Of a stretch of 64,000 nucleotides of DNA, positions 2,635 to 7,020 are shown piece after piece. The stretch is taken from contig NZ_FZNO01000002.1 of NCBI RefSeq assembly GCF_900188025.1, forward strand, positions 1-64,000, read 5' to 3'. Origin of the DNA: Blastococcus mobilis. GTDB taxonomy: Bacteria > Actinomycetota > Actinomycetes > Mycobacteriales > Geodermatophilaceae. The position numbers and the translations under genes are program-made. Each line of letters begins with the position of its first letter. The stretch's first letter is position 1. Below the pieces are notes generated by a model, which was not told where the DNA came from, did not search any database, and saw only the letters and a program-made list of their open reading frames with translations.

Positions 2635-3659
2635 CGGGAGGCCCCTCCGCTGCCGGCACGCCGGCGGTCGGCGACGAAGCGAACCACGTCCATCAGCCAG
2701 TCGCGGTCGGTGCGCAGCCGCAGGTGCCCGGCGCCGGCCCGGCGCAGCGCGGCGGCGACCTGCTCCCGCTGGGCCGCCGCCCCCTCGGCGAACCGGGCAC
2801 GGAACTCCGCGTCCCCCGTGGGCACCTCCAGGGTCTGGCCGCTCTCCGGGTCGACGACGGTCAGCAGTCCCACGTCGGGCAGCTCCAGCTCCCGCGGGTC
2901 GACCACCTCGATCGCCAGCAGCTCGTGCCGGGTGCCCAGCCCGCGCAGCGGCCGCTCCCACTCGCTGTCGCCGAGGAAGTCCGAGATCACCACGACCAGC
3001 CCGCGCCGGCGGTGCGGCCGACGCAGCGTCTCCAGGGCGGCGGCCAGGTCACCACGGCGCCCGCTCGCCGCCCGGGGAGTCGCAACCACCGAGCGCAGCA
3101 GGCGCTCGGCGGCCAGTCGGCCGGCCATCGCCGGATAGCGGTCCAGCCGCTCCCCTGTCGTGACGACGGCGCCGAGCCGGTTGCCGCCGTGCACGGTCAG
3201 GTGCCCGACCGCGGCGAGCCCGGCGATCGCGAGGTCACGCTTCTGGCAGTTCGCGGTGCCGAAGTCCAGGCTCGCGGAGAGGTCGACGACGGCCCAGGTC
3301 TCCAGCTCGCGGTCGGCGATGGTCTCCCGCACGTGCGGCACCTGGGTGCGCGCGGTGACCGGCCAGTCCATCCGCCGGACGTCGTCCCCCGGGTGGTAGG
3401 TGCGGGAGTCCCCTGCCTCCGAACCCGACCCGGGGACGAGCCCCAGGTGGTCGCCCTGCAGCAGGCCGTCGAGCCGCCGCCGCACGGTGAGCTCCAGGCG
3501 GCGCAGCAGGACGTCCGCCGGGCCGTCGGTGAAGCGCGGCGGGGCCCCGCCGCCATCCCTGGGCTCCGCCCCGGACCCCGGCGTGGCCGGGTGCAGCAGG
3601 AGCCCCGGGTGCTGGGGCGCCGGCTGGGACGGCTGGGCGGCGCGGCGACGCAGGATCAC
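2631..3659 (-). CDS. DUF58 domain protein
   Basis: This 342-residue soluble protein carries the DUF58 signature (SRTYHPGDDVRRMDWPVTAR at about residues 85-104), typical of proteins encoded between moxR and a VWA gene. The C-terminal half resembles a VWA fold that keeps only part of the metal-binding motif (VDLSASLDFG). It probably bridges the MoxR ATPase and the membrane VWA partner. The start is GTG, overlapping the moxR stop in the 4-base sequence GTGA, and its own stop overlaps the next start (ATGA), so all three genes look co-translated. The biochemical role is unproven for this family. Confidence 0.88.
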   Translation of the reverse strand: MILRRRAAQPSQPAPQHPGLLLHPATPGSGAEPRDGGGAPPRFTDGPADVLLRRLELTVRRRLDGLLQGDHLGLVPGSGSEAGDSRTYHPGDDVRRMDWPVTARTQVPHVRETIADRELETWAVVDLSASLDFGTANCQKRDLAIAGLAAVGHLTVHGGNRLGAVVTTGERLDRYPAMAGRLAAERLLRSVVATPRAASGRRGDLAAALETLRRPHRRRGLVVVISDFLGDSEWERPLRGLGTRHELLAIEVVDPRELELPDVGLLTVVDPESGQTLEVPTGDAEFRARFAEGAAAQREQVAAALRRAGAGHLRLRTDRDWLMDVVRFVADRRRAGSGGASR

Positions 3660-4876
3660 GCCGGGTGCGGCCCGTGGGCGTAGCCGTTGGCCGCGGGACC
3701 GGCCGGGGGGCCCTGCGGGCCGGCGGCCTGCGGTCCGGATCCGTTCGGCGGCCCCGCCATCTGGGGCCCGGGTGCCGGCTGGCGCGGGCCGAAGTGCGGC
3801 ACCTGCGGCCCGCCCGGGGTGCCCGGCCCGAACCCGGTGGCGTTCTGCCGGGGAGCGACCTGCGGCATGGGCACCGTCTGCACGATCCGCTTCACGATGT
3901 GGTCGGCGGGGACTCCGTCGGCCAGCGCGTCGTAGGAGAGCACCAGCCGGTGCCGGAGCACGTCAGCAGTGATGTCGAGGACGTCCTGCGGGAGCACGTA
4001 GTCCCGCCCACGCACCAGCGCCAGCGCCCGGCTGGCGGCGATCAGCCCCAGCGACGCACGCGGGCTCGCGCCGTAGGACACCCACGTCGCGACGTCCTCC
4101 ATGCCGTGCTCCCGGGGGGTGCGGGTGGCCACGACGAGGCGGACGACGTAGTCGACCAGCGCGTGGTGGACGAACACCTGCGAGGCGGTCCGCTGCAGCC
4201 GGCGCAGCTCCTCGGCGCCGAGCACCGTCTGGGCGACCGGCGGCTCCGAGCCCATGCGGTAGACGATCTCCCGCTCCTCCTCCGGGCTCGGGTAGTCCAC
4301 GAGCACCTTCATCAGGAAGCGGTCGCGCTGGGCCTCGGGCAGCGGATAGACGCCCTCGGACTCGATCGGGTTCTGGGTGGCCAGCACCAGAAAGGGGTCG
4401 GGCAGCGGATGCGTGACGCCGCCGATGGACACCTGACGCTCGGCCATGACCTCGAGCAGTGCCGACTGCACCTTCGCCGGTGCGCGGTTGATCTCGTCGG
4501 TGAGCACGAAGTTGGCGAAGACGGGGCCGAGTTCGGTGTCGAAAGCGTCCTGTCCGGCCTTGTAGATCCGGGTGCCGATGATGTCCGCCGGCACCAGGTC
4601 GGGCGTGAACTGGAGCCGGGCGAACTTCCCGCCGACGGCGGTGGCCAGCGTCTCCACCGCGAGCGTCTTGGCGACGCCGGGCACCCCCTCGAGCAGCACG
4701 TGGCCGCGGGCGAGCAGCGCCACGAGCATCCGCTCGACGAGACGGTCCTGACCCACGATGACCCGCTTGATCTCGAACAACACCCGTTCCAGCCGGGCCG
4801 CGTCGGCCGACGGGGGAACGGGCGATCCGGCGCCCGCGGGCGGAGTACCGATCGGGGTGCTGGCAGCGCTGCTCAC
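3656..4876 (-). CDS. MoxR-family AAA+ ATPase
   Basis: This 406-residue AAA+ ATPase has Walker A GVPGVAKT (about residues 64-71), Walker B FVLTDEINRA, a sensor-1 region LATQNPIE and the QRDRF arginine-finger stretch. These are classic for the MoxR family, which remodels or activates partner proteins through DUF58 and VWA companions. The last ~70 residues are a low-complexity Pro/Gly/Gln tail, probably disordered. The GTG at 4876 is preceded by GAGGAGG about 5 bases upstream and overlaps the stop of the last mini-ORF of the 77-bp array (GTGA). Translation may therefore depend on ribosomes leaving that mini-ORF. It is first of a three-gene operon with the DUF58 and VWA genes. Confidence 0.93.
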   Translation of the reverse strand: MSSAASTPIGTPPAGAGSPVPPSADAARLERVLFEIKRVIVGQDRLVERMLVALLARGHVLLEGVPGVAKTLAVETLATAVGGKFARLQFTPDLVPADIIGTRIYKAGQDAFDTELGPVFANFVLTDEINRAPAKVQSALLEVMAERQVSIGGVTHPLPDPFLVLATQNPIESEGVYPLPEAQRDRFLMKVLVDYPSPEEEREIVYRMGSEPPVAQTVLGAEELRRLQRTASQVFVHHALVDYVVRLVVATRTPREHGMEDVATWVSYGASPRASLGLIAASRALALVRGRDYVLPQDVLDITADVLRHRLVLSYDALADGVPADHIVKRIVQTVPMPQVAPRQNATGFGPGTPGGPQVPHFGPRQPAPGPQMAGPPNGSGPQAAGPQGPPAGPAANGYAHGPHPA

Positions 4877-5415
4877 GCCACCTCCTCGCTGGCGCTCGTC
4901 CGCCGCGTTCGCGGCGCTGCTGTCCTCATCGGTTCGCTCGCAAGCTCGCTCACGGGCGCTCCTCGCTGGCGCTCGTCCGCCGCGTTCGCGGCGCTGCTGT
5001 CCTCATCGGTTCGCTCGCAAGCTCGCTCACGGGCGCTCCTCGCTGGCGCTCGTCGGCCGCGTTCGCGGCGCTGCTGTCCTCATCGGTTCGCTCGCAAGCT
5101 CGCTCACGGGCGCTCCTCGCTGGCGCTCGTCGGCCGCGTTCGCGGCGCTGCTGTCCTCATCGGTTCGCTCGCAAGCTCGCTCACGGGCGCTCCTCGCTGG
5201 CGCTCGTCCGCCGCGTTCGCGGCGCTGCTGTCCTCATCGGTTCGCTCGCAAGCTCGCTCACGGGCGCTCCTCGCTGGCGCTCGTCGGCCGCGTTCGCGGC
5301 GCTGCTGTCCTCATCGGTTCGCTCGCAAGCTCGCTCACGGGCGCTCCTCGCTGGCGCTCGTCGGCCGCGTTCGCGGCGCTGCTGTCCTCATCGGTTCGCT
5401 CGCAAGCTCGCTCAC
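4873..5415 (-). repeat. Seven-copy 77-bp tandem array of chained mini-ORFs
   Basis: Seven head-to-tail units of exactly 77 bp lead into moxR, with GTG starts at 5415, 5338, 5261, 5184, 5107, 5030 and 4953; moxR's own GTG at 4876 is the next position in the same series. Each unit reads on the minus strand as a 26-residue ORF beginning VSELASEPMRTAAP and ending SASEERP. Its TGA overlaps the next GTG as GTGA. Each unit ends with GAGGAG 6 bases before the next GTG. The last unit ends SASEEVA. Each unit also holds a GCCGCGAACGCGGC hairpin. Units differ at one codon (CGG or CCG), in the order R R P P R P P going away from moxR. Whether the peptides are made is unknown. Confidence 0.9.
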
Positions 5416-5712
5416 GCGTGCTCCCTGGTCGTGCCGGCCGACGGCCGCCCGGTGGGAGCGGCTGTCGACGGGGCGGCAGGACCGTCCCCCGTGCCAGTGT
5501 CCTACACCGGCTGAACCGGTGACTGGGCGCGCGGAGAGAGTTGCCTGAGGAGTTCCTGGGAGACTTCCGTGACGCGGCCACAAGTCTGCCCGGGGGGCAC
5601 GCTGACTGCTAGCCTTGCCACGCGTCGGGCAGCTCCCCCCGTGGCTGCCCGACGCCTTGACGTCTGGCGCCGGTGCCCTGTCCCGGCGGCCGCCCGCGCC
5701 CCGGATCCGCCG
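5416..5712. other. Intergenic region between the NlpC/P60 gene and the array
   Basis: I find no convincing gene here. Short minus-strand frames run through it into the array, but their composition is not gene-like. It should hold the promoter of the moxR operon; I see only a possible -10 (TAGCAG, minus strand, 5606-5611) without a matching -35. A perfect hairpin at 5623-5654 is listed separately. Confidence 0.5.
5623..5654 (-). terminator. Terminator hairpin after the NlpC/P60 gene
   Basis: A perfect 11-bp stem (CGTCGGGCAGC and its complement) encloses a 10-base loop, about 60 bases past the stop of the NlpC/P60 gene. The stem is strong and there is no T-run, as is usual for high-GC actinobacteria. 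It would separate that gene from the moxR operon on the same strand. Confidence 0.7.
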
Positions 5713-7020
5713 TCAGGCGCTGGGCCGCACGGCGCCGGCGTAGCCCTTCCACCGCATGTCGGAAGTCTTGACGACCGAGCCGCTCTCCGGCGCCTCGAGG
5801 ATGCGGTCCCCGCCCAGCCAGATGGCCACATGGTGAATGGTGCCCGGCGCCGAGACGTCCGTGGCCCAGAAGACGAGGTCGCCGGGGCGCAGGTCGTTGC
5901 TCGAGACCTTGGGCAGCGAGGCGTACTGCGCGCGGCTGTTGCGCGCGATCGTGACGCCCGCCTGGCCGTAGGCGTACTGCGTCAGGCCGCTGCAGTCGAA
6001 CCCGATGACGCCCTCGTCCGGATCCTGGCCGGGCCCCGGCCCGCGCGTACCGCCGCCGCCCCAGGCGTAGGGCGTGCCGCGGTAGGCCATCGCGGCATCG
6101 ATCGCCGCCTGGGCGGCGGAGGTGTCCCCCGCTCCGGCCGGGGTCGGGTTGCCGGCCGGCGTGGGCGCGATGCCGGCCGCGGGCGGCGTGACCACCGGAC
6201 GGGTGATCTCGGCGGTGCGGTCCGCGGCAGCCCGCTCGCCGACCAGCTGCTGCAGCTCCACCTGGGCGGCGGCCAGCTCGGTCTCCAGCTGCGCCTGCTC
6301 GGTGGTCAGCGCGGCGGCCTGCTCGCGTGCGTCCACCTCGGCGGCCTTGGCGACCGCGAGGGCGGCGGCGGCGTGCTCCTGCAGGCCGGCCGCGGTCTCG
6401 ACGCTGGTCCGCGCGACCGTCTCGGCCTCGGCGGCCTGCGCCTGCAGCACCGTCACCCGGTCGAAGACGTCGGACCGGTGCGCGCCCGCCGCCTCGAGCA
6501 GCGCGGCACGCTGGATCAGCTCGCCGGGATCGGCGGCGGTGATCAGGGCTGCGGCCCCGGGGTACGTGCTGCCCTGCATGTAGCTGCGGCGCGCGAAGGC
6601 AATCACGTCGGTGCGGGCGGCATCCAGGTCCGCGGTGGCCTGCGCGGCCTCGGCGGCGGCGGCGTCGGCCTCCTGCTGGGCGACCAGGTAGGCGGCCTGC
6701 GTGGCCTGGTACTCGTCGAGCGCGATCGCCGCGTCGGCCTGCGCGGCGTCCACGACGTCCTGTGCGGCGGTCAGCCGGTCCGACAGTTCGCGGATGCGCG
6801 TGGCGACGGCGTCGGCGGCGGCCTGCGCCGCGGCGATCTCGCTGTCGCTGGGCCGTCGGGGGTCTGCCTGCGCGACCGACGGAGTCAAGCCGAACGTCAG
6901 GGCCGCGGCGACGGCGACACCGCCGACGCGCAGCGCAGTCCGGACCCGGCGGGACCGCGTGCCGGCGTCCGCCCCATGGCGAGGCGGCCGCACGGACGCG
7001 GTCTGCCTACTCCTGTCCAC
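5713..7020 (-). CDS. Secreted NlpC/P60 peptidoglycan endopeptidase with coiled-coil
   Basis: This 435-residue exported wall hydrolase resembles RipA. After an Arg-rich start comes a signal peptide (VRTALRVGGVAVAAALTFGL, cleavage near AQADP). About 190 residues of Ala/Glu-rich coiled coil follow, then a Pro/Thr/Ala linker, and a C-terminal NlpC/P60 domain with catalytic Cys in GFDCSGLTQYAY, the His in TIHHVAIWLG and Trp/Glu near DRILEAPE. It probably cleaves the stem-peptide bond next to diaminopimelate during septum splitting. I chose the GTG at 7020, preceded by AGAGG about 9 bases upstream, over the upstream ATG at 7065, which has no ribosome site. The 5' region is long and structured (see leader). 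Confidence 0.9.
   Translation of the reverse strand: MDRSRQTASVRPPRHGADAGTRSRRVRTALRVGGVAVAAALTFGLTPSVAQADPRRPSDSEIAAAQAAADAVATRIRELSDRLTAAQDVVDAAQADAAIALDEYQATQAAYLVAQQEADAAAAEAAQATADLDAARTDVIAFARRSYMQGSTYPGAAALITAADPGELIQRAALLEAAGAHRSDVFDRVTVLQAQAAEAETVARTSVETAAGLQEHAAAALAVAKAAEVDAREQAAALTTEQAQLETELAAAQVELQQLVGERAAADRTAEITRPVVTPPAAGIAPTPAGNPTPAGAGDTSAAQAAIDAAMAYRGTPYAWGGGGTRGPGPGQDPDEGVIGFDCSGLTQYAYGQAGVTIARNSRAQYASLPKVSSNDLRPGDLVFWATDVSAPGTIHHVAIWLGGDRILEAPESGSVVKTSDMRWKGYAGAVRPSA

Follow-up and report, generated by a model that had tools for sequence, protein, structure and literature searches.

In the window analysed here (64,000 nucleotides of Blastococcus mobilis DNA), moxR lies in a neighbourhood coding for MoxR, DUF58, VWA/BatA and NlpC/P60 proteins, and its GTG start codon is directly preceded, on the minus strand from 5415 to 4877, by seven tandem units of 77 bp. 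Each unit consists of a GTG, 25 further codons and a TGA that overlaps the following GTG (GTGA), and each contains a GAGGAG that stops 5 bases short of the next GTG. Tandem Repeats Finder gives a period of 77 with 7.1 copies, 98% matches, no indels and a score of 1051, a periodicity far beyond chance; coordinates and program output thus confirm the seven overlapping mini-ORFs, with their ribosome sites, that a preliminary description had reported as ending on the moxR GTG. The features are as follows, positions within a unit being counted from its GTG.

3656..4876, minus strand: moxR (AAA_3 ATPase), the host gene
4877..4953, minus strand: unit 7, which differs at one base, has GTGGC as its final five bases and abuts the moxR start
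4954..5030, minus strand: unit 6, one base different
5031..5107, minus strand: unit 5
5108..5184, minus strand: unit 4
5185..5261, minus strand: unit 3, one base different
5262..5338, minus strand: unit 2
5339..5415, minus strand: unit 1, whose GTG comes after AGGGAG, which also precedes the moxR start in relatives lacking a unit
4870..4913, minus strand: predicted hairpin 41–84 of unit 7 (arm 4913–4894, loop 4893–4890, arm 4889–4870), based on covariation across the family
5394..5415, minus strand: predicted 5' hairpin (positions 1–22) around the start codon of the unit 1 mini-ORF, with covariation mainly at 5–18 and 1–22
5496..5505, minus strand: promoter-like motif GTAGGACACT, conserved in 19 of 22 moxR loci and lying 5' of the array, with a putative promoter role

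Unit 7 terminates in GAGGAGGTGGC and is followed without any gap by the moxR GTG at 4876; its 4889–4870 arm holds the GAGGAG, the spacer, the moxR GTG and bases of codons 2–3. By eye, the units differ at a single internal base and in the final five bases of unit 7. The internal base reads, from the upstream end of the array, C C G C C G G, a pattern suggesting growth by duplication of three-unit blocks. Between the NlpC/P60 gene and moxR, an inverted repeat, GCGTCGGGCAGC ... GCTGCCCGACGC (5655–5622), is visible and recurs upstream of moxR in many relatives; it is perhaps a terminator. An Rfam scan of 3000–6500 returned nothing above gathering score, the sole match below it being an L31 leader inside moxR.

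The unit belongs to a dispersed family. The B. mobilis genome contains 48 unit matches at E ≤ 0.001, organized in four arrays (of 7, 4, 3 and 2 units) and single copies, and a consensus query found matches in 41 of 61 genomes, including 34 of the 37 from the same bacterial family. Our covariance model R1 had matches in 39 of 121 genomes of the order and in 15 of 148 drawn from the class, counts that include B. mobilis itself each time and are obtained with filters that lose weak matches. Matches listed for the conserved 3' pattern include records from Geodermatophilus, Blastococcus, Modestobacter, Pseudonocardia, Amycolatopsis, Prauserella and Nocardia. Among the matches listed, one Geodermatophilus record (L093) shows at least five in tandem, so that long arrays are not unique to moxR. 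Elsewhere in the B. mobilis genome, the array L029 (G000:C51:165606-165903) is made of four 75-bp units, a length that predicts in-frame reading into the gene; by its length, it would extend the host protein rather than restart translation.

Our main set comprises 290 full-length matches, 38 of them internal, giving 229 distinct gene-adjacent copies in 171 clusters by downstream protein. We kept the 159 cluster representatives with DTGA at both ends (12 were dropped), 134 of which are 77 bp long; array-internal units and 8 copies with an element-like start downstream are excluded, although the sets used for G.T counts, near-identical pairs and codon-position variability include a few array-internal units taken as gene-adjacent. 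Of the 70 copies drawn for alignment A1, 68 are included; the other two were visibly out of register. One has to keep in mind that the copies share ancestry, so the counts are not fully independent, even at one copy per host gene.

The insertion site is well defined. In copies not selected for a start codon, the ends are flush on DTGA start codons in 32 of 34 cases in B. mobilis and in 90 of 94 cases in relatives, the latter taken mostly from the best-scoring matches to the consensus query; at least 101–107 copies retrieved with a pattern ending in a start codon were left out of this evidence. An open frame of at least 60 codons lies downstream of 34/34 and 93/94 of these copies, respectively; the flush ends are the stronger sign, since 61% of 1492 random DTGA sites are also followed by such a frame. 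Element and gene have the same base at position 5 in 119 of the 159 copies (75.7 ± 5.5 when shuffled; matched by 0 of 2000 shuffles), whereas base 6 shows no association in the same copies; the duplication is thus DTGAN, on both sides of the element. A longer duplication reaching upstream of the start was rejected, the comparison of flank bases −1 to −7 with the spacer being unconvincing (weak at −2 and −4). For 17 of 30 first units in B. mobilis, the left TGA is the end of an ORF of at least 200 codons (20% of 481 control sites; p = 1.0e-5), so many insertions seem to have occurred between overlapping genes; unlike these, moxR has no overlapping upstream gene.

Two hairpins are predicted in the element. 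In the larger one, positions 41–60 face 65–84 (covarying pairs sum to 125) around a loop at 61–64, and the stem encloses the GAGGAG (67–72), the spacer, the host start codon (78–80) and bases 82–84 of codons 2–3; inner positions 54–55 and 57–58 face 67–71 as G-A letters and were treated as unpaired when covariation was counted. Cells changed on both sides number 129, against 48.5 ± 4.9 in shuffled and at most 46 in slid alignments, and RNAalifold recovers the 41–84 stem unaided. The 5' hairpin (1–10 facing 13–22, pairs summing to 23) draws its support from 5–18 and 1–22 only and is not given by RNAalifold; it would hide the start of the mini-ORF itself, and moxR has no overlapping upstream gene that would open it. 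Folds of single sequences are no better than those of shuffles (z = −0.66, 0.50 and −0.63); the moxR leader fold, the first of these, includes much of the unit 7 hairpin.

The arm of the larger hairpin is fitted to each host gene. Positions 41–43 are complementary to bases 82–84 of their own gene at 2.63 of 3 positions (1.82 ± 0.06 shuffled), and positions 37–39 are identical to the same bases at 2.37 of 3 (1.50 ± 0.05 shuffled). Base 5 is unlike base 82 in 31 of 134 copies; among these, 18 is paired with 5 in 29 and 43 is paired with 82 in 27, the crossed pairs occurring in 8 and 6. In the moxR array, the third base of the last unit's arm fits the GCG of a next unit and not the GCA of moxR. 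A set of 41 copies from other families of the class replicates the complementarity over 12 bases (8.95 vs. 7.07 shuffled, maximum 7.54), with the reservation that these copies came from a search with a structural model, which favours complementarity, and that the weakest of 42 matches was left out. The 37–39 identity was not replicated in them (4.32 vs. 4.26 shuffled, identity and complement being scored jointly).

This fit could have arisen on the DNA itself, when the element inserted or later, by target recognition or by templated rewriting (quasipalindrome-type copying), any effects on translation being secondary. Among 150 near-identical pairs of elements at different genes (0–2 differences in 46 core positions), 121 have differing gene triples, and in these, the arm fits its own gene at 2.71 of 3 positions and the other's gene at 1.71, the own-gene fit dropping to 2.10 as core divergence rises; among 37/43/82, 38/42/83 and 39/41/84, the gene is the deviating member in 2, 2 and 9 of 134 copies, and at 41–84, G.T is rarer than A.C (2 vs. 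13). Against this, G.T is retained over A.C (18 and 7, with 46.6 and 41.8 expected) at five strongly covarying pairs picked post hoc (1–22, 5–18, 42–83, 43–82 and 47–78), which points to pairing at the RNA level. Moreover, positions 44–45 read G-A in 65 of 78 copies with C43-G82 and in 1 of 45 with G43-C82 (p = 1.8e-20), a context-dependent replacement of Watson–Crick letters that copying would not produce, even if subfamily structure may partly lie behind it. The rule for sheared tandem G.A pairs predicts such a dependence. An origin of the fit on the DNA is possible but not our first choice; copying, selection on the RNA and target choice could each explain part of it.

A fixed inherited guide was rejected as the sole cause of target choice, as guides differ between near-identical elements; at orthologous loci with similar upstream flanks, guide and gene often change together by eye (L079/L204 and L174/L276 are exceptions), and repeated insertion at the same gene could also be a source of differing guides. 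The copy of the host's 82–84 at 37–39 has no explanation in translational coupling. We put forward, as a tentative idea, a minimal mobile element whose arm would be rewritten or selected for each invaded gene (41–43 complementary and 37–39 identical to 82–84), each copy locking the start of its own host gene until translation of the mini-ORF opens the hairpin.

Among the 134 copies that are 77 bp long, the frame of the mini-ORF is interrupted by a stop in 1, against 25.2 ± 4.7 expected when substitutions are randomly placed (minimum 11 in 200); the control frames are stopped in 39 (frame 1, 41.7 expected) and 11 copies (frame 2, 31.0 expected), and as frame 2 is also short of stops, the openness partly reflects positional conservation. 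With each host gene represented once (159 copies), the frame stays open up to the overlapping TGA in 147, and a further 8 have an open frame that continues in phase into the gene; among the 30 copies that are not 77 bp long, the overlap is kept in 18, an in-frame fusion is found in 9 and neither in 3 (p = 0.0033). Copies in other families of the class mostly measure 68, 77 or 80 bp, and 35 of 41 have a length that fits the overlap, all 35 being open. The three codon positions are equally variable, which speaks against selection on the peptide; the peptide does not seem to be conserved, and from these patterns, the mini-ORF products look irrelevant. Translation through the unit, as the preliminary description had proposed for the moxR array, thus seems to be under selection across the family, while the part of that proposal in which copy number regulates moxR is not supported.

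A passive repeat, tolerated at start codons for its good ribosome site and with immaterial mini-ORF translation, would agree with the intact GAGGAG at 67–72 in 123 of 134 copies; we consider it improbable, as the open frame and its phase are kept above expectation (with frame 2 also depleted in stops) and the ribosome site sits in a covarying hairpin.

We, therefore, favour, with a probability of roughly 0.7 and from sequence comparison, a dispersed, MIRU-like element that inserts at start codons and would keep the invaded gene expressed by translational coupling. As the sequences show, it lies on a DTGA start codon, with DTGAN repeated on either side, often at an overlapping TGA/start, and supplies an open frame ending on the host start, a GAGGAG five bases upstream and the two predicted hairpins (1–22 and 41–84). 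A ribosome completing the mini-ORF would open the 41–84 hairpin and restart at the overlapping GTG, so that the invaded gene would stay expressed. At moxR, a single insertion probably grew to seven units, and up to seven such steps may consequently lie before a ribosome that enters where moxR translation once began.

We compared the moxR loci of 21 relatives (L047–L067; 22 loci with that of B. mobilis, L046–L067). Against seven units here, one is found in 2 of the 21 (L047 in G012, E = 7.8e-17, and a degenerate unit in L058 in G015, E = 3.2e-4) and none in 19, 15 of which show a readable empty site, CAGGGAG N4 GTGA, uninterrupted; the array, thus, looks like a local expansion and not a conserved control of moxR. 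The motif GTAGGACACT is found at 19 of the 22 loci, B. mobilis included; no promoter was seen between the array and moxR, since this motif stands on the far side of the array and the gene follows the last unit directly. A regulator specific to moxR, in which the number of reinitiation steps sets the MoxR level, is most improbable: the array, its overlaps and its ribosome sites are real and would lie within the moxR leader if GTAGGACACT is its promoter, but the unit precedes many unrelated genes, relatives carry a single unit or none at moxR, and the 75-bp units of L029 would, by their length, read in frame into their gene with no restart. Such a dial is unsupported; moxR could be served directly by the GAGGAG of the last unit, and the seven-step chain is plausibly a by-product of the tandem growth of a coupling unit.

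Several known systems resemble this element. REP elements are short dispersed hairpin repeats moved by Y1 (RAYT) transposases; our element is likewise short, dispersed and hairpin-forming, but differs by its phased insertion at start codons and by the absence of Y1_Tnp. A Y1 transposase was rejected as the mover, Y1_Tnp being found in none of the 16 genomes of the genus (B. mobilis and 15 congeners) and in 1 of the 25 genomes searched overall. Viral carriers were likewise set aside, as one 3' pattern had no exact match in viral_contigs. A short ORF whose end falls on the main gene's start, a ribosome site within that ORF and translation that opens a structure are also characteristic of translationally coupled upstream ORFs and bicistronic expression designs, from which the element differs in being a dispersed repeat, not a gene-specific one.

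The closest likeness is with mycobacterial MIRUs, which insert where an upstream stop overlaps a start and whose tandem copy number varies between relatives. The element shares with them its dispersal over many loci of one genome (48 matches), its insertion at DTGA start codons (32/34 and 90/94), an internal ORF with a stop codon overlapping the start of the host gene (147/159), an upstream ORF end overlapping the insertion site (17/30 first units, absent at moxR) and a tandem copy number that varies among relatives (7, 1 and 0 at moxR). When 298 genomes of the order were searched for a MIRU motif, 13 had it, all in one genus, presumably Mycobacterium; at these loci, a CGACGA-like stretch precedes GAGGAG, with DTGA 6–11 bases later in 13 of 21. 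The letters shared with our element are seen by eye only; R1 reached a best E-value of 0.38 on 20 loci retrieved with this motif.

In the passage that PMC12548453 devotes to them (citing Supply 1997 as its reference 77), MIRUs are apparently mobile, insert at start codons and couple an internal ORF, at −4 nt, to the gene they enter; parts of the same source cover coupled upstream ORFs and bicistronic expression designs. The earlier statement that no regulator of this design had been described was, thus, wrong, the MIRU design being already in print in that passage. Our element differs from MIRUs by its occurrence in other host families and by a 5' hairpin and a host-fitted arm, both absent from the MIRU passage of PMC12548453; the host-fitted hairpin may be a new feature. 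Among the titles listed on Geodermatophilaceae, MIRUs or coupling (subscription papers lying outside the scope), none names this element family.

These results take the MIRU design beyond mycobacteria to other actinobacteria, give statistical evidence for selected translation through the unit, and add a testable oddity, a repeat hairpin that matches the first codons of each host gene. How a repeat can spread without killing the genes it enters, and whether reinitiation chains carry ribosomes, become testable questions. In another family of the class, a subfamily (L361, L363, L364 and L370–L373) has arms around the start codon that are variable and largely complementary.
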